Source of the DNA: Gammaproteobacteria bacterium
GTDB lineage: Bacteria; Pseudomonadota; Gammaproteobacteria; Steroidobacterales; JABDMI01
Direction of reading: 5' to 3'
DNA: 41,871 nt
Assembly: GCA_013001575.1 (NCBI GenBank)
Contig: JABDMI010000116.1
Location: forward strand, 1-41,871
The position numbers and the translations under genes were made by a program. The notes beneath the pieces are model-generated. The model searched no databases, was not told where the DNA came from, and saw nothing but the letters and a program-made list of their open reading frames with translations. Of this stretch, positions 14,649-41,871 are shown piece after piece (the stretch's first letter is position 1; the number at the start of each line of letters is the position of its first letter).

Positions 14649-15419
14649 ATGTTCAGATTACCGTTCTTAGTACTGATTTGCACAAGTCTGTTATTGTCAG
14701 CTTGTGCTACAGCCCAACAAGTGGCCAATCAACAAAGCAGTTTGCATCAATACCGGCCTTTACCGGATCTGGATAATCAGGAAACCGTGGTGTTATTACA
14801 CGGTTTGAATCGCACGGCACGTTCAATGCGACCGCTGGCAAGCAGTCTTCAGGCCAATGGCTATAGCGTCTGCAATATTGATTATCCATCACGTTATTTT
14901 GAACTCAATGTCTTGGCCATGGAATATGTGTTGCCCCGCATTCGGAACTGTGTGACTGATCCATCAGGGGTGCTGCATTTTGTAACCCATTCCATGGGCG
15001 GCATGCTGGTTAGAAGTCTGGATGCCCATTTATCAGAATTCACTACCGGACATCTGGTGATGCTGAGTCCGCCCAATAAAGGCAGTGAAGTGGTGGATGT
15101 ATTCGCCCATAATCGCTTGTTTATGCAAAGCGCCGGCCCGGCCGGCAGTCGCCTCGGCACTGATCCCGACAGTTTGCCCAGCACTTTACCTCAGCCATCA
15201 ATGCCATTTGGAGTGATTGCGGCAAAGCACAGTAACAGTGCGATGTCATGGGTATTACCGGGTGACGATGACGGTAAAGTTACCCTGGAAAACATGAAAC
15301 TCGAAAGCATGCAGGATTTTATTGTGATCGGAAACACGCATTCCTTCATGATGCGGGATGCCGACGCAATCCGGCAGGTTTTGCATTTCCTCAGACAAGG
15401 TAAATTCAAACACAATTGA
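14649..15419 (+). CDS. Alpha/beta-hydrolase lipoprotein (lipase-like)
   Basis: A 256-residue protein with a lipoprotein signal ('FRLPFLVLICTSLLLSAC', Cys19, Ala at +2, so outer-membrane sorting is likely). The alpha/beta-hydrolase core has an oxyanion-region 'VVLLHGLNRTARSM', a nucleophile elbow 'THSMGG', a candidate acid in 'GDDDGKVT' and a His in 'GNTHSFMM'. This pattern resembles bacterial triacylglycerol lipase/esterase-like proteins of roughly 200–260 residues. The substrate is probably an acyl ester at the cell envelope; this is an inference from the fold. It starts 27 bases after ubiB, and its stop codon is almost at the next in-frame region. Confidence 0.85.
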   Translation: MFRLPFLVLICTSLLLSACATAQQVANQQSSLHQYRPLPDLDNQETVVLLHGLNRTARSMRPLASSLQANGYSVCNIDYPSRYFELNVLAMEYVLPRIRNCVTDPSGVLHFVTHSMGGMLVRSLDAHLSEFTTGHLVMLSPPNKGSEVVDVFAHNRLFMQSAGPAGSRLGTDPDSLPSTLPQPSMPFGVIAAKHSNSAMSWVLPGDDDGKVTLENMKLESMQDFIVIGNTHSFMMRDADAIRQVLHFLRQGKFKHN

Positions 15420-15481
15420 TCTCCGTCAACGATCGGGGGTGTGCAAACGCTATACTTGACCGCCATGCAAACAGGAAGGCA

Positions 15482-16150
15482 ATGGTAAACCTAATCGATA
15501 AACAGCAACTCACCAGTACCAGGATCATGCAATGGATCACGGTGATTCTGCGGGTACTTCTGTTTATTGGCGCGATAATACTGTTTGTACAAAACAAATT
15601 CTTGCCGGCATTGACCACTTGTGGAATTATTCTGGCCACTTTTACGCCGCGGTTACTCGGTCATTCCCTGCGCGTGACCGTTCCGGTTGAATTCGAATTC
15701 CTGGCGGTGGTATTTATTTATGCCTCACTGTTTTTGGGCGAGGTTGGAGGCTACTATCAAGTGTACTGGTGGTGGGACCTGATGTTGCATCTGGCCTCCG
15801 GGTTTATTGCGGGTATCTTTGGCTTTGTTCTGGTGCATGTGTTAAATGAAAATGACAATATCGGCATGCACCTGAATCCCGGCTTTGTGGCTTTTTTTGC
15901 TTTTTTGTTTTCGCTGGGCCTCGGAGTGATCTGGGAATTATTCGAATACATCATGGATGTGGTGTTTGGTATGAACATGACCAAAACGGGCCTGGACGAT
16001 ACGATGGAAGATATTTTTATTGCCTTGATCGGAGCTCTGGTTATCTCGGTGATTGGCTATATTTTTTTAAAACGCAACAAACCCACCCGCTTCTTTGAGC
16101 GCTGGGTGTACAAATTTGTAAAACAAAACCCGCAACTATTCAAAAACTGA
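15482..16150 (+). CDS. Six-helix inner-membrane protein (DUF2238/YjdF-like)
   Basis: About 222 residues with six hydrophobic helices. I chose the ATG at 15482, supported by AGGAAGG at 15473–15479, over a TTG at 15416 that overlaps the previous gene. Conserved-looking polar motifs lie inside or beside helices: 'WWWDLMLHLASGF' and 'WELFEYIMD'. The D-x-x-x-H...G and W-E-x-x-E pattern recalls the DUF2238/YjdF family of unknown function. Acidic and His residues in the membrane plane suggest metal or ion handling, but this is speculative. It ends shortly before rssA, in the same direction. Confidence 0.75.
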   Translation: MVNLIDKQQLTSTRIMQWITVILRVLLFIGAIILFVQNKFLPALTTCGIILATFTPRLLGHSLRVTVPVEFEFLAVVFIYASLFLGEVGGYYQVYWWWDLMLHLASGFIAGIFGFVLVHVLNENDNIGMHLNPGFVAFFAFLFSLGLGVIWELFEYIMDVVFGMNMTKTGLDDTMEDIFIALIGALVISVIGYIFLKRNKPTRFFERWVYKFVKQNPQLFKN

Positions 16151-32062: not shown

Positions 32063-32563
32063 ATGCAAAAACTGGCTAAACAAATATCCACGCTTTGTGA
32101 CTGCTTAGGGCGTACCGTTTCCTGGTTGACCTTGTTTATGGTGTTGGTCACCTTTGCAATTGTGGTGTTACGCAAATTCTTTGACCTCGGCTGGATATGG
32201 TTACAGGAAAGTGTGACCTGGATGCATGCCCTGGTCTTTATGCTGGCGGCTGCCTATACCTTGAATGCCGACGAGCATGTGCGAGTGGATATTTTCTATA
32301 CCCGATGCAGCCCGCGTACCAAAGCGTATGTCGACCTGGTCGGTGCGATCGTTCTGTTATTGCCACTGTGCGCTTTCATTGCCTGGAGCAGTTGGGACTA
32401 TGTGTCGGAATCCTGGCGAATCCGGGAAACTTCCTGGCAATCGGGCGGCTTGCCGGCCTTGTATCTGCTTAAAGCGGTGATCCCGCTGACGGCGATCTTG
32501 CTTGGCTTGCTGGGATTCTTGAGATCTCTGGCTAATTTCATCGAGGTTAAACAGCGGTCATAA
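32063..32563 (+). CDS. TRAP transporter small permease (DctQ-like), orphan
   Basis: A 166-residue inner-membrane protein with four hydrophobic helices and the DctQ pattern 'LQESVTWMHALVFMLAAAYTLNADEHVRVDIFY', ending with 'LLKAVIPLTAILLGLLGFLRSL'. DctQ subunits pair with the large permease DctM and a periplasmic solute-binding protein DctP to import organic acids or compatible solutes by Na+ coupling. Normally dctM follows at once. Here the next 600 bases are AT-rich and non-coding, and then the adhesin gene begins. The partner may be elsewhere, or the operon may have been disrupted. Confidence 0.88.
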   Translation: MQKLAKQISTLCDCLGRTVSWLTLFMVLVTFAIVVLRKFFDLGWIWLQESVTWMHALVFMLAAAYTLNADEHVRVDIFYTRCSPRTKAYVDLVGAIVLLLPLCAFIAWSSWDYVSESWRIRETSWQSGGLPALYLLKAVIPLTAILLGLLGFLRSLANFIEVKQRS

Positions 32564-33175
32564 GACTCAAATGTATGCACAACTGCATTGGGTAAAGAAT
32601 GAAGGACTTCAACTCAGAACAGGCATTTCACAAAGGATTCTTAATCAAAATGGCATTTACCAACTGTTTCAATTAGTTAACAAGTTTCTCTAAATTCAGA
32701 TTACAGAATGTCACGCAAAATTATTGGCAGATTGTTCCAAAACAGTCCTAAACCATTAATTTTATTCTTAAAAAAAAATTATAAGGCTATTTTTTTGTAT
32801 GTTATTCAAGCAATCTCAGTATGGATGAAATCAAAAGCAACCCAGTTTGTTTCATTTTTGGCACGAAATGGCCAAAATCAGGAAAATATCTCTTCAAACA
32901 GTGTCTATTGCCTATAAAACCTGCATTTTGTTGCAGTTTTTAACTGTGCTACACTCAGGCGAATTTAATTAAAAACAACTAGGGTAATGCAGGTGCATAA
33001 TTGAACAACAAAGTCGACACACAAGTCGGCATAGGCGTTATCAAAGAGTAAATTTCAAACACTAATACATGCTTGGTCAGACTCACTGAGTGGCTGGTCA
33101 GCGGGTATTTATTTAATTAAATACAAGCGCAATTTCACTACATAAACGATAAACATTTCAAAACGGATTAAGATT
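32564..33175 (+). other. AT-rich intergenic region of 612 bases before the adhesin
   Basis: No recognisable gene. Two weak ORFs are present (40 codons from 32571; 69 codons from 32708), with no Shine-Dalgarno, no recognisable domain and AT-driven composition, so I do not call them. The right third contains a promoter-like pair (32928–32955), two TGGTCAG direct repeats (33074–33080, 33095–33101) flanking the palindrome ACTCACTGAGT (33081–33091), and a long leader up to the adhesin ATG. The sharp change in base composition relative to flanking genes suggests a deletion scar or insertion boundary. Confidence 0.5.
32928..32955 (+). promoter_or_regulatory. Putative sigma-70 promoter of the adhesin gene
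   Basis: TTGTTG (32928–32933), a 16-base spacer, and TACACT (32950–32955). Initiation from it would give an untranslated leader of roughly 210–215 bases before the ATG at 33176. I found no match to the c-di-GMP-I riboswitch core in that leader. Confidence 0.45.
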
Positions 33176-36100
33176 ATGAAACCAACAAGACTAACAGCAA
33201 ATCTGGTACTACTTTTAGGCGCTTTCAGCTTGAGTAATCCACTGCGGGCCCAGGAGCAATTGGATGCTTCTGACGGCGTCGGCGTCGATGTGATCGACGG
33301 GGTTAATTCAACTAGCGTAGATGAGTTTGGCAATCTGATCTTGACCATGGAAAGTGGTGAAACTGTTACGGTCTTGTCTGGCGAGTATTTTATTTATGAC
33401 GGAAGTTATTATCTGACTTCCGATGCGCTGGCCAATCTGGGTTTATCCATCGAAGATGCAGCCGCAGTTGTGGTTGCCGCAGCCGGCGGTGGTGGCGGTG
33501 GAAGCACTCTTCTGTTGGTCGGTGGTGGTGTATTGTTACTTGCAGCAGCAGCTGGCGGTGGTGGCGGTGGTTCATCAGCACCCGCTCCAGCTCCGGCGCC
33601 TCCCGTAAATAATGCCCCATCTTTCACTTCTGCCAATTCGAGTAATGCGGCTGAAAATACAACCACGGCCTACGATGCCAACGCCACCGATCCCGATGGC
33701 AATTCCATCACCTATGGCCTGACTGGGACAGATGCGAGTTTATTCACCATCAATTCCTCAACCGGGGTTGTGAGTTTCATCAATCCACCCGATTTTGAAA
33801 ATCCGGGCGACTCCGATGGGGACAACGTGTATGACGTGAATGTCACTGCATCGGATGGCAGCCTGAGCGTTTCCCAGGGCGTGTCTATCACGGTGACGGA
33901 TCAAAATGATGCCCCGGTTGTCAGTGCAGCTATAGAAGACGAAACAAGTGAAAATGCCGGTCTGAGCGTTGACTTATTACAAAACGCCAGTGACCAGGAT
34001 GGCGACACACTGAGCATTGCCAATGTGGTTGAGACCAGTGGCAACGACGCCAGCGGTGTAAGCATTTCTGGCAGCACCTTAACGGTGGATATGACCACCT
34101 ACGATTATCTCGCCGAGGGCGAAACAGTCGTATTGGTCTACACCTACGACGTTGAGGATGGCAATGGTGGAACGGTCAGCACCTCGGCTACCATTACCAT
34201 TACTGGTCAAAATGATGCGCCAATCTTAGCTGTGGTTGATATTGCTGCCACCGAAGACGGGGCGCCAGTCGATGGAGCGTCGACGGCTAGTGATGTGGAC
34301 ATCAGTGATACCCATGTATTCACTACCACTCAACCAACTGAAGGCAGCGTCAGTATTGATGCCGCGACCGGTGTGTACACTTTTGACCCGGGCGAAGATT
34401 TCCAATACCTCGCCGATGGCGAGACCACCACGGTCAGTTTTGACGTCACCGTAACAGACAATAATGGCTTGTCAGATACGCAAACCGTTACGGTAACCGT
34501 TACCGGTACCAATGATGTTCCGGTCATTGTTGAAGCCGAATCCGACTTGAGTGGCGATGTCACCCAGGTCCCGTTGGCCGACGCTGCATCAAGTTCGGCG
34601 TTCACCGCAGTTGGTGAAGTAATCGGCGTGAATGAATTGAATGGCATTTTGCCTACCGAGGGCAGCTCGATGGCATTGTTGAATGCCCAGGGCGCTACCG
34701 ATGCCGAGATCGAGGCCGAACTGGGTCTTGCACCGGGTACTCTGGATGTCCATGCCGGTCAAGATGTGGTTGATGGCTCAGGCATAACTACGGCCGTGAC
34801 CCTGACCGCCGGTCAAGTGGTCACGTTTGACTGGAATTTCCAGGACGCTGAAGGCGACGTGCCCGTAACCACTGATATCAATGATTTTGCTTTTGTCTCG
34901 GTCAACGGAGATGTTTCGTATCTGGAGCGTAGCTCGGATGTGGATACGAATGAATGGACCACTTATTCCTTTACAGCACCGGCCGACGGCACCTATGTGT
35001 TTGGCATCGGGGTGGTGAATGAAGGCGACGATGCCGTAGATTCGCAATTGCTGGTGGACAATTTCAGTGTTGATGGAGTTTTGGTTGATGGTGCGGAAGG
35101 TCTCGACTCCCTGACAACCAGCGGCACAATTACCTTTACCGATCTCGATTTCACGGATACGCATGGTACCGAGGTCGAGCCCGACGCGGGCAATACCCTG
35201 GGTGGCATCATGGTTTTGACCGGAGTCAGTGAAGACCCAACCACCGAACCGGGCACTTTTGACTGGACCTATGTGGTCGATAACGAAGCCACGGCCTATT
35301 TGGCAGAAGGCGAAACCACCACTGAAAGTTTTACCGTGTTCGTGGGCGATGATTTTTCTGATATTGACGTACCCGGCACATTTGACTCGCAGGTAATTAC
35401 AATCACAATCACTGGCACCAATGACGCGCCAGTCATTTCAGTTGTTGATCTGGCCGCCACTGAAGACGGTGCCACAGTTGATGGCACGGCTACTTTTACC
35501 GATGTCGATCTGATCGATACTCATGAATTCACTACCACGCAACCTTTGGAAGGCAGCGTAACTATTGATGCGGCGACTGGTGTCTACACCTTTGATCCAG
35601 GTGCCGATTTCCAATATCTGGCGGATGCTGAGACCGCCACGGTCACTTTTGATGTCACCGTCACAGATAATAATGGCTTGTCAGATACGCAAACCGTAAG
35701 CGTAACCGTTACCGGTACCAACGACACCCCGATCATTGAAGTGGTCGATGTTGAGGGTGCGGTCATTGAAGACGCCACCACGCCAAATCTGACCGACGCA
35801 GGCTCTGTCACATTCACTGAAATTGATGACACCGATGTAATTACTTCATCGGTTGCTCTTACAGCAGAGGCCACCGACAGCGCAGAACCGATTCCGGCCG
35901 ATTTGAGTGCCGCCTTGGCGAGCGCGGTCACAATTACCCAGACGGGTACCAACGATGGTGATATTGCCTGGGATTTCAGTCTCGATAATGCTCTGACCCA
36001 ATACATTGCTGATGGCGAGACCGTCACCGCGACCTACACCATCACCGTAATGGACGACAGTGGAACGGCCAATGACACTGCAACGCAAGACGTTACGGTT

Positions 36101-39100
36101 GTGATCACCGGCACCAATGACCAACCGACCCTGACCATTCTTGATACGGATGGCGCGATGGACGAAGGTGATGACAATGCCGTATTGTCCGATTCAGGCG
36201 CATTAAGTTTTGACGATATCGATGCGACCGACATCGTTACAGTCAGTCAAACCTACAACGATGATATCGCCTACAGCGGCGCGCTCGACCCGGCCGATCC
36301 TATCGATCCCGTGAACCTGGCTCTGGAAGCCGACCTCATTGCCGGTTTCAGCGTGGATCAGGACAGCTGGGACTACACCTCCAGTGAAGACCTGGACTTC
36401 TTGGGTCTGGGTGAAACCATCACTCTTTCTTTCGATGTTGTTGCCACCGATGATTCGGGTACGGCCAATAACACTTCGGATCCGGTCACGGTCACCATCA
36501 CTTTCACCGGCACCAATGATGCAGCCGTCGTTACGGGTGTGGTCGAAGGTGAAGTAGGTGAAGGCGATCTGGTGGATACTGTGTTTGGTGATCTCAATCA
36601 CACCGATGTGGACAACACTGATCCGGACGGCCTGTTCCAGGCAGATTCCGGGGCGACCACATACGGAACATACACAGTCGACGCCGATGGCAACTGGAGC
36701 TTTACTCTGGATAATGCCAACCCTGCCACCGAAGCATTAACCGCAGGCGAAGTAGTCACTGACAGTTTCAGCGCGTTCGCTGATGATGGCACAGAACAAG
36801 TGATTACTGTCACCATTAATGGCAGTAATGACGGCGCCATTCTGAGTGCTGATGTGGAAAATCTGGTTGAAACCGATCTTGCCGCTGATATCAGTACCAG
36901 TGGAGCCTTGACCATCAGTGATGTGGATGCTGGCGAAGCAGTATTCGTAGCGCAGGCTGGTAGCGTTGGAGACTACGGCACATTTACAATTGACGCAACC
37001 GGCGCCTGGACTTACACCGCCAGTTCCGCGCATGATGAATTTGTTGACGGCGTTACTTACACAGATACCTTTAGTGTGCAAAGTGCCGACGGCACCACCA
37101 CCAGTGTCACCATCAATATTCTCGGCACCGATGATGCGGCCATCTTAAGTGCCGATGTGGTTGCTCTGACTGAAACCGATTCAGCTCTTGATATCAGCAC
37201 CACAGGTACTTTGACCATTAGCGACTCCGACAGCCCGGAAGAGTTTGTGGTGCAAACCGGCACATTGGGTGATTACGGCACCTTTACTATCGATGCCGAT
37301 GGCAGCTGGACTTACGCGGCCAGTACGGCGCACAATGAATTTGAAGATGGTGTTGTGTACACAGACACCTTCAGTGTGGAAAGTGCCGATGGCACCACCA
37401 CCAGCGTCACTATTAATATTACCGGGACCAATGATGCAGCAGTGGTCAGCTCCGATTCGGTTGACCTGATTGAAACCGACGCGGCCTTAACCGCTGATGG
37501 CGTTTTAACCAGTTCCGATGTGGATAATACCGACAACGCTTTCACGGCCAGTACCACGACAGGCACACTGGGTGAATTTGACATTGATGCACTGGGTGCA
37601 TGGACCTTTACGGCCAACAGTGCTTTCGATGAATTGAATGACGGGGATGTCATTAGTGAAACTTTTGATGTCGCTAGTGCAGACGGAACACCGAGTACGG
37701 TCACCATCACCATCACCGGTAGCAACGATTCAGCCAGCATTGTGGCTTCCCTGATGGAAGATACAGCGACAACAGAAGCCGGTATTGATGCCGTGGGCGC
37801 TCCAGTAGCCGGCGATACGGATGCTGGTGGCACTTTGATAATTACAGACGCCGATGATGGTGAAGCTGTATTCCAGGCGCCGGCTTCCTTGGCGGGCACC
37901 TACGGTGACTTTACTTTTGATGCAGCAACCGGAGTGTGGGCCTACACCTTGAACAATGCCGATCCTGATACTCAGGCATTGGCAGCGGGCGACCCAGCAA
38001 CCGATACATTAACCGTCACATCGCAAGACGGCACGGCCAGTTACGACATCGTGGTCAATATCACTGGGACCAATGACGCCGCCGAGATCACGGGCACCAG
38101 CAGTGGTTTAGTGCTGGAAGATTTTGCCATTAATGTCGTGAGTGGTGATCTGCAAAACACCGACATCGATGGCACCGACCAGGTGTTCCAGGCTGGTGCA
38201 GGCGCGGGTGACAACGCTTATGGCACGTACACTGTTGATGCAGAGGGCACGTGGACATACTCACTGAGCAATGCCAATGCCGACGTTAACGCATTGAATG
38301 TCGGTGATACCCTCATCGACAGCTTCACGGTATTGAGTGAAGACGGCACAGAACAAGACGTGACCATCACGATCTATGGCTCCAATGACGGACCGGTTGC
38401 AGTTGCTGACATGGTGACCACCAACGAAGACACCCTGGTCAACATCGATGTGTTGGATAACGATACCGATGTGGATAACCTGCCCGCCGATCTGTCGGTC
38501 ACTTCGGTTAGTGCCTCCAACGGTACCGTGACCATTAACCCTGATAACACCCTGGATTACACCCCGGATGCCGATTACAACGGTTCCGATGTCATTTTCT
38601 ACACCATCAGTGATGGCAATGGCGGTGTGGATACCGGGACGGTTGCGGTCACGGTAACCCCGGTCAATGACGCACCGGTTTTTGCAACCGATGCGGTTGC
38701 CGCTTCGACAGCCGAGGATCAGGTCCTGACGGGTACGGTTAACGCCACCGATGTGGATGCTGATGTGCTGACTTATACCATTGAGATTGGCGATGGAGCC
38801 GCAAATGGCACCGCTGCGGTAGATGCCAGTGGTAATTACACCTACACTCCGAATGACGATTTCAACGGTACCGACAGTTTTGTCATCACCGTAACGGACA
38901 ATGGCACTGGTGCCTTGACCGACACCATCACAGTCAATGTCACGATCAATCCGATCAATGACGCGCCAGTGGCGAGTGTAACGGCAGCCGCAGCCTTGAC
39001 TGAGGGTGTCGATGCCTCCGGCACAGCTGTCGCGACAGTGTCGCAGACAGACCCGGATGCGGGTGATACTCACAGCTACGCGATCATCGGCGGCAATGAA

Positions 39101-41871
39101 GCGGGTCTGTTTACAATTGATGCCGGCACTGGCGAGATAACCACAACACGAGACCTGGACGATGCCGAGGTTGGCAGTTATCAGCTGACCTTGCTGGTCG
39201 AAGATGCGGCTGGCGCGCAGGACGCAATTATTCTGGATGTCACGGTCACGAATGTGAATGATGCGCCAATTGTGGCAGTCGATTCGGCAACAACCGCGGA
39301 AGATACCGCGGTCACCATCAGTGCGGCCTTGTTATTGGCCAACGATACCGATGCCGATGGCGATGCCTTGAGTATTAATGCACCATTAGTTACAACGACC
39401 TGGGATGACGACGGTAATGCTGCTACTGCAGAAGTGCCTGCGGGTACGGTTGCCTTGGTCGATGGCAATCTGGTATTTACCCCAGACACGAATTTTGTGG
39501 GCGACGTCATCATTACTTATAACGTCAATGATGGCACCGTCGATGTCCCAAGCAGTGTTGTGGTGACAGTTGGGGGCACCAACGACGCTCCGGTTGCAAC
39601 CGTGACCCCGACTAACACAAGCTTGACTGAAAACGACGCGCTGGATGATACGGGTACCGAAGTTGCGACCTTGTCGCACACCGATGCGGATGTCGGCGAC
39701 ACCCACAGCTACGCGATCATCGCGGGCAATGAAGCCGGCCTGTTTGCAATTGATGCCGGCACTGGCGTGATAACCACGACGCGTGACCTGGATGATGCCG
39801 AGGTCGGCAGTTACCAACTGACCTTACTGGTTGAAGACGGGGCTGGTGCACAGGATGCGGTGACTCTGGATGTCACGGTTGAAAACGTGAACGATGCGCC
39901 GGTTGTCACGGTCGATGCCGCGAGTACTGCGGAAGATACGCCGGTCACGATTAGCGGGGCCTTGTTGGTTTCCAATGATACGGATGCCGATGGCGATACC
40001 TTGAGTATTGACACAGACATAACGGTTGCGCCGACGGCGTCATCCGGTACTGTGGCATTGGTTGATGGTGACCTGGTCTTTACACCGGCAGAAAATTTTG
40101 TTGGTAACGTGACGATCACTTACAACGTGACCGATGGCAATGGAGCGTCGGTGGCGAGTAGTGTTGTTGTATCGGTCAGTCCGGTCAATGATGCACCGGT
40201 TACAGACGACGCCGAAACGCTCACAGTTGATGAAGACACTGCGGGTATGGTGTCTCCATTAACGGGTGATACGGATGTTGATGGCGACACACTGACAATT
40301 ACCGGCGCGGTTGCCTCCAATGGCACAGTGACGGAGTCCGGCGGTGTACTTACCTACACCCCGGATGCGGACTTCAACGGTTCCGATGAGATTGTTTACA
40401 CCATCAGTGATGGTAATGGCGGTGTGGATACCGGCACGATTGCAGTCACGGTAAACCCGGTCAACGATGCGCCGGTGATTGCAGGCGAAGACACCGGCAC
40501 TGTCACTGAAGACGTTGATGTGACCGCTGGGACGCCTGACACCATTGAAACTAGCGGTAATTTGACTGTTACGGATGTGGATGCGGGCGAAGCTGCATTC
40601 AGTACAACGGTGGTCACTCAGGGAGTTCTGGGTGAATTGACCATTGATGCGCTGGGTAACTGGACTTATGTTGCCGACAACACCCAAGCGGCCATTCAGT
40701 CACTGGGTGAGGGTGAAAGCACCACCGATACGATTACGGTCGAAAGTGCCGACGGTACCGATCACGACATCGTAATCACCATTATTGGTACTAATGATGG
40801 ACCGGTAGCGGCTAATTTAGAAAATACCGATCTGCAATCTGAAGATGAAGCCGCTTATACAGTTGATCTGAATGTTGCCAATATTTTAGGTATCACCTTG
40901 GCCGATTTAGGAACCGATGTTGATAACACACTGACCTCGGAATCCTTCAGTTTGAACGGCGTGACCATTGCCGGGACTCTGTACTCGGCCGCGGACGCGG
41001 GCATTGGTTATAACCCGACCACGGGTGAGATCACCATTAATACCGGAACGGATGCGTATCAATACTTGGCTGAAAATGAGACAGCTGAAGTTGTTGTTAG
41101 CTACACCGTGACCGATGGTTTGGCCAGCGATACCGGCACGGTCACGTTTACTGTGACCGGCGTAAATGATGCTGCGATCATCACCGGTAATGACGCGGGT
41201 GACGTGGCAGAAGACGCATTGGTGGATAGCGCTACGGGCGACTTGAACAACACCGACGTGGACGGCGCGGATAATGTGTTCCAGGCGGCGGGTCCTACGG
41301 CCACGACCTTGGGCACTTATGAAGTTGATGCAGACGGCACGTGGACCTACACCCTGGACAACGGCAACACCACAGTGGATGCCTTAGCCGAAGGCGAGAC
41401 CACCACCGACAGCTTCAGCGTGTTGAGCGAAGACGGTACGTCGCAGTTGGTGACGGTGACCATTACCGGTGCGAACGACGCACCGGTGGCAGTGGATGTT
41501 GACCTAACGGCTGCGCCACAGTTTGAAGACGAAGCCGTGGTGACGATCGATCTAGCGACTGGCTTAGACAACTACGGCAATGATCTCGGTCTCACGATCG
41601 CCGCTGTGGCGACCGATGTGGACAGCACGCTGACGATCGCCTCTTTCAGTTTAAATGACGTGACAATCGACGGGACCTTGTACTCGGCGGCGGACGCGGG
41701 CATCAGTTATGATCCGGGAACGGGCTTGATCACTGTGGATACCTCAGTGGACGCCTATCAAGGTTTATCGGCCACCGATGTGGCCTCGGTTGTGGCCAGC
41801 TTCACGGTTACCGATGATTTTGGGGCCACCGATACAGCCACAGTGACCTTTGCGGTCAATGGCGTGAACGA
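33176..41871 (+). CDS. Giant cadherin/VCBS-repeat surface adhesin (cut by right edge)
   Basis: One uninterrupted frame of 2,898 codons, still open at the right edge. The start ATG is at 33176, leading into a Sec-like signal ('MKPTRLTANLVLLLGAFSLS', cleavage plausible after 'PLRA'). About 70 residues of novel N-terminal domain follow, then an Ala/Val stretch, six Gly, a hydrophobic core 'STLLLVGGGVLLLAAAA', six more Gly and a Pro/Ala linker (to about residue 145). A cadherin-like domain comes next, then about two dozen VCBS/cadherin repeats of roughly 95–130 residues, most ending in G-T-N-D-A-P. Asp/Asn-rich loops are typical Ca2+ sites. I read no Cys and one Lys. It probably acts in attachment or biofilm. 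The C-terminus and any secretion signal lie outside; no type I secretion genes are in view. Confidence 0.93.
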   Translation, partial: MKPTRLTANLVLLLGAFSLSNPLRAQEQLDASDGVGVDVIDGVNSTSVDEFGNLILTMESGETVTVLSGEYFIYDGSYYLTSDALANLGLSIEDAAAVVVAAAGGGGGGSTLLLVGGGVLLLAAAAGGGGGGSSAPAPAPAPPVNNAPSFTSANSSNAAENTTTAYDANATDPDGNSITYGLTGTDASLFTINSSTGVVSFINPPDFENPGDSDGDNVYDVNVTASDGSLSVSQGVSITVTDQNDAPVVSAAIEDETSENAGLSVDLLQNASDQDGDTLSIANVVETSGNDASGVSISGSTLTVDMTTYDYLAEGETVVLVYTYDVEDGNGGTVSTSATITITGQNDAPILAVVDIAATEDGAPVDGASTASDVDISDTHVFTTTQPTEGSVSIDAATGVYTFDPGEDFQYLADGETTTVSFDVTVTDNNGLSDTQTVTVTVTGTNDVPVIVEAESDLSGDVTQVPLADAASSSAFTAVGEVIGVNELNGILPTEGSSMALLNAQGATDAEIEAELGLAPGTLDVHAGQDVVDGSGITTAVTLTAGQVVTFDWNFQDAEGDVPVTTDINDFAFVSVNGDVSYLERSSDVDTNEWTTYSFTAPADGTYVFGIGVVNEGDDAVDSQLLVDNFSVDGVLVDGAEGLDSLTTSGTITFTDLDFTDTHGTEVEPDAGNTLGGIMVLTGVSEDPTTEPGTFDWTYVVDNEATAYLAEGETTTESFTVFVGDDFSDIDVPGTFDSQVITITITGTNDAPVISVVDLAATEDGATVDGTATFTDVDLIDTHEFTTTQPLEGSVTIDAATGVYTFDPGADFQYLADAETATVTFDVTVTDNNGLSDTQTVSVTVTGTNDTPIIEVVDVEGAVIEDATTPNLTDAGSVTFTEIDDTDVITSSVALTAEATDSAEPIPADLSAALASAVTITQTGTNDGDIAWDFSLDNALTQYIADGETVTATYTITVMDDSGTANDTATQDVTVVITGTNDQPTLTILDTDGAMDEGDDNAVLSDSGALSFDDIDATDIVTVSQTYNDDIAYSGALDPADPIDPVNLALEADLIAGFSVDQDSWDYTSSEDLDFLGLGETITLSFDVVATDDSGTANNTSDPVTVTITFTGTNDAAVVTGVVEGEVGEGDLVDTVFGDLNHTDVDNTDPDGLFQADSGATTYGTYTVDADGNWSFTLDNANPATEALTAGEVVTDSFSAFADDGTEQVITVTINGSNDGAILSADVENLVETDLAADISTSGALTISDVDAGEAVFVAQAGSVGDYGTFTIDATGAWTYTASSAHDEFVDGVTYTDTFSVQSADGTTTSVTINILGTDDAAILSADVVALTETDSALDISTTGTLTISDSDSPEEFVVQTGTLGDYGTFTIDADGSWTYAASTAHNEFEDGVVYTDTFSVESADGTTTSVTINITGTNDAAVVSSDSVDLIETDAALTADGVLTSSDVDNTDNAFTASTTTGTLGEFDIDALGAWTFTANSAFDELNDGDVISETFDVASADGTPSTVTITITGSNDSASIVASLMEDTATTEAGIDAVGAPVAGDTDAGGTLIITDADDGEAVFQAPASLAGTYGDFTFDAATGVWAYTLNNADPDTQALAAGDPATDTLTVTSQDGTASYDIVVNITGTNDAAEITGTSSGLVLEDFAINVVSGDLQNTDIDGTDQVFQAGAGAGDNAYGTYTVDAEGTWTYSLSNANADVNALNVGDTLIDSFTVLSEDGTEQDVTITIYGSNDGPVAVADMVTTNEDTLVNIDVLDNDTDVDNLPADLSVTSVSASNGTVTINPDNTLDYTPDADYNGSDVIFYTISDGNGGVDTGTVAVTVTPVNDAPVFATDAVAASTAEDQVLTGTVNATDVDADVLTYTIEIGDGAANGTAAVDASGNYTYTPNDDFNGTDSFVITVTDNGTGALTDTITVNVTINPINDAPVASVTAAAALTEGVDASGTAVATVSQTDPDAGDTHSYAIIGGNEAGLFTIDAGTGEITTTRDLDDAEVGSYQLTLLVEDAAGAQDAIILDVTVTNVNDAPIVAVDSATTAEDTAVTISAALLLANDTDADGDALSINAPLVTTTWDDDGNAATAEVPAGTVALVDGNLVFTPDTNFVGDVIITYNVNDGTVDVPSSVVVTVGGTNDAPVATVTPTNTSLTENDALDDTGTEVATLSHTDADVGDTHSYAIIAGNEAGLFAIDAGTGVITTTRDLDDAEVGSYQLTLLVEDGAGAQDAVTLDVTVENVNDAPVVTVDAASTAEDTPVTISGALLVSNDTDADGDTLSIDTDITVAPTASSGTVALVDGDLVFTPAENFVGNVTITYNVTDGNGASVASSVVVSVSPVNDAPVTDDAETLTVDEDTAGMVSPLTGDTDVDGDTLTITGAVASNGTVTESGGVLTYTPDADFNGSDEIVYTISDGNGGVDTGTIAVTVNPVNDAPVIAGEDTGTVTEDVDVTAGTPDTIETSGNLTVTDVDAGEAAFSTTVVTQGVLGELTIDALGNWTYVADNTQAAIQSLGEGESTTDTITVESADGTDHDIVITIIGTNDGPVAANLENTDLQSEDEAAYTVDLNVANILGITLADLGTDVDNTLTSESFSLNGVTIAGTLYSAADAGIGYNPTTGEITINTGTDAYQYLAENETAEVVVSYTVTDGLASDTGTVTFTVTGVNDAAIITGNDAGDVAEDALVDSATGDLNNTDVDGADNVFQAAGPTATTLGTYEVDADGTWTYTLDNGNTTVDALAEGETTTDSFSVLSEDGTSQLVTVTITGANDAPVAVDVDLTAAPQFEDEAVVTIDLATGLDNYGNDLGLTIAAVATDVDSTLTIASFSLNDVTIDGTLYSAADAGISYDPGTGLITVDTSVDAYQGLSATDVASVVASFTVTDDFGATDTATVTFAVNGVN
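34520..35100 (+). other. Non-repeat beta-sandwich-like domain embedded in repeat 3 of the adhesin
   Basis: Residues about 449–641 of the adhesin break the repeat pattern. The segment includes 'LNGILPTEGSSMALLNAQG', then 'TTAVTLTAGQVVTFDWNF', 'FAFVSVNGDVSYLERSS' and 'WTTYSFTAPADGTYVFGIGV', ending 'LLVDNFSVDG'. The order of strands recalls jelly-roll/choice-of-anchor or lectin-like domains found in surface proteins. It is the best candidate for a ligand-binding tip-type module. Fold assignment is by eye only. Confidence 0.6.
38950..40180 (+). repeat. Duplicated two-domain cadherin unit in the adhesin
   Basis: Two consecutive ~620-base units (38950–39573 and 39573–40180) each pair a classical cadherin-like domain ('HSYAII-GNEAGLF-IDAGTG', 'TTTRDLDDAEVGSYQLTLL') with a second domain containing 'AEDT-VTIS-ALL--NDTDAD' and 'GTVALVDG-LVFTP--NFVG'. 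The units are nearly identical over long stretches, which indicates recent duplication and a site prone to recombination or assembly collapse. Confidence 0.85.
40800..41871 (+). repeat. Second duplicated unit near the right edge of the adhesin
   Basis: The block from about 40,800 to 41,166 ('SFSLNGVTIAGTLYSAADAG', 'INTGTDAYQYLAENET') is repeated from about 41,485 to the window edge ('SFSLNDVTIDGTLYSAADAG', 'VDTSVDAYQGLSATD'), with one VCBS unit between. This alternating pattern is still running at the edge, so the gene probably continues with more copies. Confidence 0.75.

Follow-up and report, generated by a model that had tools for sequence, protein, structure and literature searches.

The locus analysed here raises the question of how the product of a giant gene that runs off the end of a contig would leave the cell, and how it would remain attached to it. 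The window, that is, the whole stretch of DNA under study (41,871 nucleotides), is an entire contig (G000:C116:1-41871), and the gene thus runs off a true assembly end. Its frame (33176-41869, +) comprises 2,898 codons with 0 stops and has its 3' end past the contig edge; given the base composition found here, the chance of such a frame arising at random is ~10^-55. An initial annotation had described an open-ended frame of at least 2,898 residues, and this is borne out: the contig physically ends there, and a search for an in-frame stop within 33176-41871 found none. Overlaps between the end of C116 and other contigs of the same genome (G000) were looked for and not found. The right end of the window is organized as follows.

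32063-32563, +: dctQ, the small TRAP permease subunit, intact, 166 aa, forming the left flank of a candidate island (Pfam DctQ, E 5e-21)
32564-33175, +: A+T-richer spacer of 612 bases between dctQ and the adhesin gene (sequence)
33176-41871, +: giant cadherin/VCBS adhesin gene (stop-free frame, Pfam and NCBIfam matches)
33620-33916, +: first cadherin domain, residues 149-247, colinear with Altericroceibacterium proteins (Pfam, alignment)
33917-41869, +: VCBS/Cadherin_4/Cadherin_5/Big_9/Cadherin array (Pfam, NCBIfam)

The spacer contains promoter-like sites at chance level only, together with a weak stem-loop followed by T (32921-32936). The remaining genes of the window outside the adhesin are ordinary housekeeping genes; a 244-residue frame at 15416-16150, flanked by genes for an alpha/beta hydrolase and a patatin, has no Pfam family.

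Searches of the available 2,898 residues against Pfam and NCBIfam returned cadherin, VCBS and Big_9 families: 16 Cadherin_4, 10 Big_9, 6 Cadherin_5 and 3 Cadherin stretches, partly overlapping, in the former library, and 14 VCBS_repeat and 11 tandem-95 stretches in the latter. The array amounts to roughly 24-26 units of ~100 residues each, with several subtypes arranged in blocks; about 24 VCBS/cadherin repeats of blockwise mixed subtypes had been counted previously, and the ~25 units given by the family libraries agree with this. Because the repeat copies are diverged at the DNA level (71-86% for the best pairs), the array within the contig is unlikely to have arisen through collapsed repeats. 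Past the signal-like segment described below, the protein contains 17.5% Asp+Glu, no Cys and only three Lys or Arg in 2,872 residues (585, 1992 and 2203; window 33254-41869), that is, 0.1% Lys+Arg, compared with 0.6-3.5% in the proteins sharing its N-terminus and 3.7% and 2.6% in two other giant proteins of the same genome, on contigs C27 and C93. It also carries 61 DxD motifs. Calcium-stiffened cadherin rods share this acidity and these motifs. Domain content and relatives support the view that this is a giant cadherin/VCBS cell-surface adhesin, as had been proposed, with adhesion as its predicted function; its full nature depends in part on a C-terminus that lies outside the assembly. RTX calcium-binding nonapeptides are common but not obligatory in type I substrates; none (HemolysinCabind, Pfam) was found in the available 2,898 residues, and such repeats may sit in the missing part.

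Repeat proteins of other kinds occur in these genomes. The giant gene on C93 (1490-10075, 2,861 aa) has a lipoprotein-like start and Big_9 and Calx-beta-like repeats, and is preceded by a gene for a FecR-like protein. Two small VCBS lipoproteins are present in the related genome G002 (L098 on C21 and L099 on C252); L098 is closely preceded by a polysaccharide-lyase-like gene, and the C-terminal part of L099 looks similar.

The gene preceding the adhesin pointed to its probable missing neighbourhood. The order trkA-trkH-PTPS-LOG-dctQ is common to three genomes of the genus, and dctQ of the window aligns over its full length with those of G001 and G002. In the sister genome G001, dctM follows dctQ directly, with a stop/start overlap (TAATG) and no adhesin, whereas in the window and in G002 the adhesin comes after dctQ. 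The TRAP locus had been described as truncated-looking, and indeed no dctM follows dctQ in the window; the operon is not degenerate, however, but split over two contigs, as the sole dctM of G000 lies on contig C110, with 388 of 458 residues (85%) identical to dctM of G001. On C110, an ABC transporter gene whose 5' end is missing (418 residues left), genes for an HlyD adaptor and a TolC-like protein, 107 bases and dctM are arranged in one direction, and this orientation matches placement downstream of the adhesin. The simplest reading is that adhesin and exporter would form one island inserted between dctQ and dctM. The overlapping dctQ-dctM pair without adhesin in G001 argues for gain of the island rather than its loss, and the two genes, contiguous in one species and separated in the sister species, would offer a view of the insertion before and after. 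The only repeat shared by both island edges is one of 9 bases, at chance level. More generally, an operon that looks cut short where a contig ends can indicate where the rest of a giant gene's surroundings is to be found.

The ABC fragment, which lacks approximately its first 160-180 residues as judged by alignment to its two closest relatives, matches the PrtD subfamily (TIGR01842) best (E 2.5e-111), scoring 372.9 bits, where the cut-off is 510, while covering 390 of 544 positions, versus 233 bits for the LapB/LssB type. The adaptor passes the cut-off for type I HlyD proteins, and the TolC-like protein (E 5e-29) falls below that of its family. No LapB/LssB-type ABC protein (TIGR03375) was matched above cut-off in the genome. 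Type I genes, which the initial annotation had suggested looking for past the contig edge, are present on C110, albeit of PrtD/HlyD/TolC rather than LapB type. No sequence joins C116 to C110, and the adjacency of adhesin and exporter would bridge an assembly gap.

A different continuation had been considered first, and was abandoned once dctM and the type I genes appeared on C110. Contig C27 opens, near rsmG, with a 5'-open frame of 1,378 residues, and the locus (L009, 3-8569) encodes a repeat protein with an OmpA-like end followed by a 1,483-residue outer-membrane protein. Were the adhesin to continue into this frame, it would be exported by Sec together with the large outer-membrane protein after it, in line with its Sec-like start and with the Cadherin_4/Big_9 repeats shared by both, C27 opening inside a repeat frame. 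We consider this very improbable: dctM points to C110 with its type I genes, rather than to C27, as what lies on the other side of dctQ, and the C27 frame (Calx-beta, Big_9, SdrD_B, DUF11 and the OmpA-like end) belongs to a family of its own, found in 47 of 196 genomes of the order and sometimes as a single fused frame of up to ~4,800 residues. In 21 of 25 scanned genomes with this family there was no VCBS match, the few matches being weak and located on other contigs or in other frames, and the contrast in Lys+Arg content given above (3.7% versus 0.1%) points the same way.

A link between adhesin and exporter also emerged from a distant group of bacteria. A scan of the GTDB collection had the ABC protein of C110 as its sole query, the adhesin N-terminus playing no part in it, and the two best loci were those of Altericroceibacterium indicum and A. 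spongiae (Alphaproteobacteria; L143 and L144), at 55% and 53% for the ABC protein, followed by the next at 34%. At both, a divergent gene ~240-290 bases from the exporter encodes a protein of ~540 residues with three cadherin domains, which shares 34-35% identity with the first ~250 residues of the adhesin; signal-like start, small domain, hydrophobic segment, linker and cadherin domain are colinear. As this N-terminal module is rare and was not part of the query, the pairing tests the link instead of restating it, and these loci, which come from a single genus and are therefore counted as a single event, appear to link adhesin and exporter independently. They also bear on the possibility that the two are not neighbours at all, a rearrangement having broken the TRAP operon and the C110 exporter having other substrates. 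Past dctM, G000 and G001 carry different genes, which makes a rearrangement there possible, and exporters of the PrsDE type can serve many scattered substrates (PMC9298526). Yet this reading would require the positions of two contig ends and the gene orientation to coincide by accident with the independent Altericroceibacterium pairing, and we regard it as unlikely.

The adhesin is ordinary in kind, being a probable giant type I adhesin; its unusual part is the N-terminal module, which the initial annotation did not mention beyond a signal peptide, and which is composed of the following elements.

33176-33250, +: signal-peptide-like segment, residues 1-25, MKPTRLTANLVLLLGAFSLSNPLRA (sequence, hydropathy, AxA-like site)
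33254-33463, +: beta-rich domain of the N-terminal module, residues 27-96 (homologues L143, L144, L166 and L167; AlphaFold)
33503-33556, +: Gly-rich, membrane-like hydrophobic segment, residues 110-127 (Kyte-Doolittle, same position in homologues)
33557-33619, +: Gly/Ser/Pro linker, residues 128-148 (sequence)

The module thus consists of a signal-like segment, a beta domain of ~60 residues and a membrane-like Gly-rich helix. Inspection by eye and hydropathy bear out a signal-like start, with a basic beginning, a hydrophobic run and an AxA-like site, likewise present in four homologues. The second hydrophobic segment has a Kyte-Doolittle value of 1.87 over 19 residues, compared with 2.07-2.49 in three homologues and a weaker 1.33 in the fourth (L167). 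When aligned with each of the four homologues, the beta domain scored above all 2,000 shuffles, and AlphaFold modelled its core at a pLDDT of ~85-91. A fold search against the PDB gave no match at E up to 0.001, sequence and profile searches against the PDB gave nothing significant, and neither Pfam nor NCBIfam holds a family matching the module.

Its distribution is narrow. Among 398 genomes of the phylum, a profile search at E <1e-5 found the module in three, namely G000 itself and two further genomes. In one of the latter (L166) it heads an RTX protein with 15 HemolysinCabind stretches, and in the other (L167) a protein of ~2,000 residues. RTX proteins are typical type I substrates; no type I genes were found near either protein in the stretches read. 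A continuation of the RTX gene of L166 at the opposite contig end was considered and rejected, as a different giant gene lies there. Searches with single N-terminal sequences (296 genomes of the order and 369 of the class) returned just Gly-rich lipoproteins and noise, and neither a first GTDB scan nor plasmid searches with module sequences gave a match. The orthologue in G002 (L075, G002:C56, 1-1400) starts with MTMNENTT at the first cadherin domain, preceded by a plausible ribosome site, and is devoid of both signal segment and module.

We consider it likely that a giant adhesin, retained by its N-terminus, is exported by its own PrtD-HlyD-TolC type I system, the genes of which would follow directly on the far side of the gap. 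Export would begin at the C-terminus, with a presumed signal located in the assembly gap; the acidic repeat rod would fold outside the cell in calcium; and the N-terminal module, leaving last, would stay behind in the envelope as a tether for the rod. Since type I export proceeds C-terminus first, the module, being last, is well placed to retain the adhesin. Type I substrates do not usually begin in a Sec-type manner, and a working Sec signal is problematic because Sec would have claimed a giant protein well before synthesis reaches its C-terminal signal. This Sec-like start, the G002 orthologue without module, the unjoined contigs, the differing genes past dctM and the lack of type I genes in the stretches read around L166 and L167 weigh against the reading, as does the restriction of the Altericroceibacterium pairing to one genus.

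Among the options for anchoring, we favour a hairpin, albeit with confidence that stops short of even: the first helix would start Sec translocation, the beta domain would reach the periplasm, and the second helix would halt transfer, keeping the remaining chain cytoplasmic until type I export. The main alternative is that the module plugs a TolC-like pore and is cut by a LapG-type protease, as in LapA, the signal-like segment then being no working Sec signal. The module does match the LapA retention module in position and role, and two AAAG sites in the adhesin fit the published [T/A/P]AAG consensus (PMC13090378). These sites, however, lie in low-complexity stretches and are missing from three of four homologues, and LapA- and BapA-type N-terminal families gave no match in NCBIfam (E up to 5) or Pfam (E up to 1); we hold a pore plug to be somewhat unlikely. 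Returning to the hairpin, its two helices would pin the N-terminus, and we tentatively suggest, as an idea with a minority chance of being correct, that the module represents an undescribed class of envelope anchor for type I adhesins and RTX proteins in alpha- and gammaproteobacteria. That a conserved start module travels with a PrtD-type exporter in another bacterial class suggests that the start is functional.

The closest exporter found is the uncharacterized one of Altericroceibacterium (adaptor 49-50% and TolC 37-39% versus C110, with the ABC protein at 53-55%); its neighbouring proteins share module, linker and first cadherin domain with the adhesin, and differ in their length of ~540 residues, their three cadherin domains and a gene divergent from the exporter genes.

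Among characterized systems, PrsDE is PrtD-like. The Rap proteins of Rhizobium leguminosarum are cadherin-like (Ra/CHDL), calcium-binding proteins that are exported by PrsDE and act in the biofilm matrix (PMC9298526). They appear to be the nearest characterized cadherin-like type I substrates found, and are, unlike the adhesin, small, released and part of a large set of dispersed substrates. LapA-type adhesins combine a retention module with a LapEBC exporter and LapD/LapG control. They resemble the adhesin in their giant repeats, type I exporter and non-repetitive N-terminal domain placed for retention, whereas the system described here has a module outside the family libraries, a Sec-like start and an ABC protein of PrtD rather than LssB/LapB type. 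SiiE of Salmonella, a type I giant adhesin, likewise forms a giant rod, built of Ig/cadherin-like repeats, and has type I genes of its own (PMC5466336); going by published descriptions, it differs in its repeat families and N-terminus. BapP of Pseudoalteromonas tunicata is a giant adhesin of the Big_9/Calx-beta kind, for which a Sec signal is predicted and which has adjoining type I-like genes; in contrast to the adhesin, it has an N-terminal five-bladed beta-propeller, an ABC part described as LolD-like and tandem transporter genes (PMC12153261). That a Sec signal should occur alongside type I genes has been noted in print as an open contradiction for BapP (PMC12153261), and the natural ~540-residue version in Altericroceibacterium makes this question testable.
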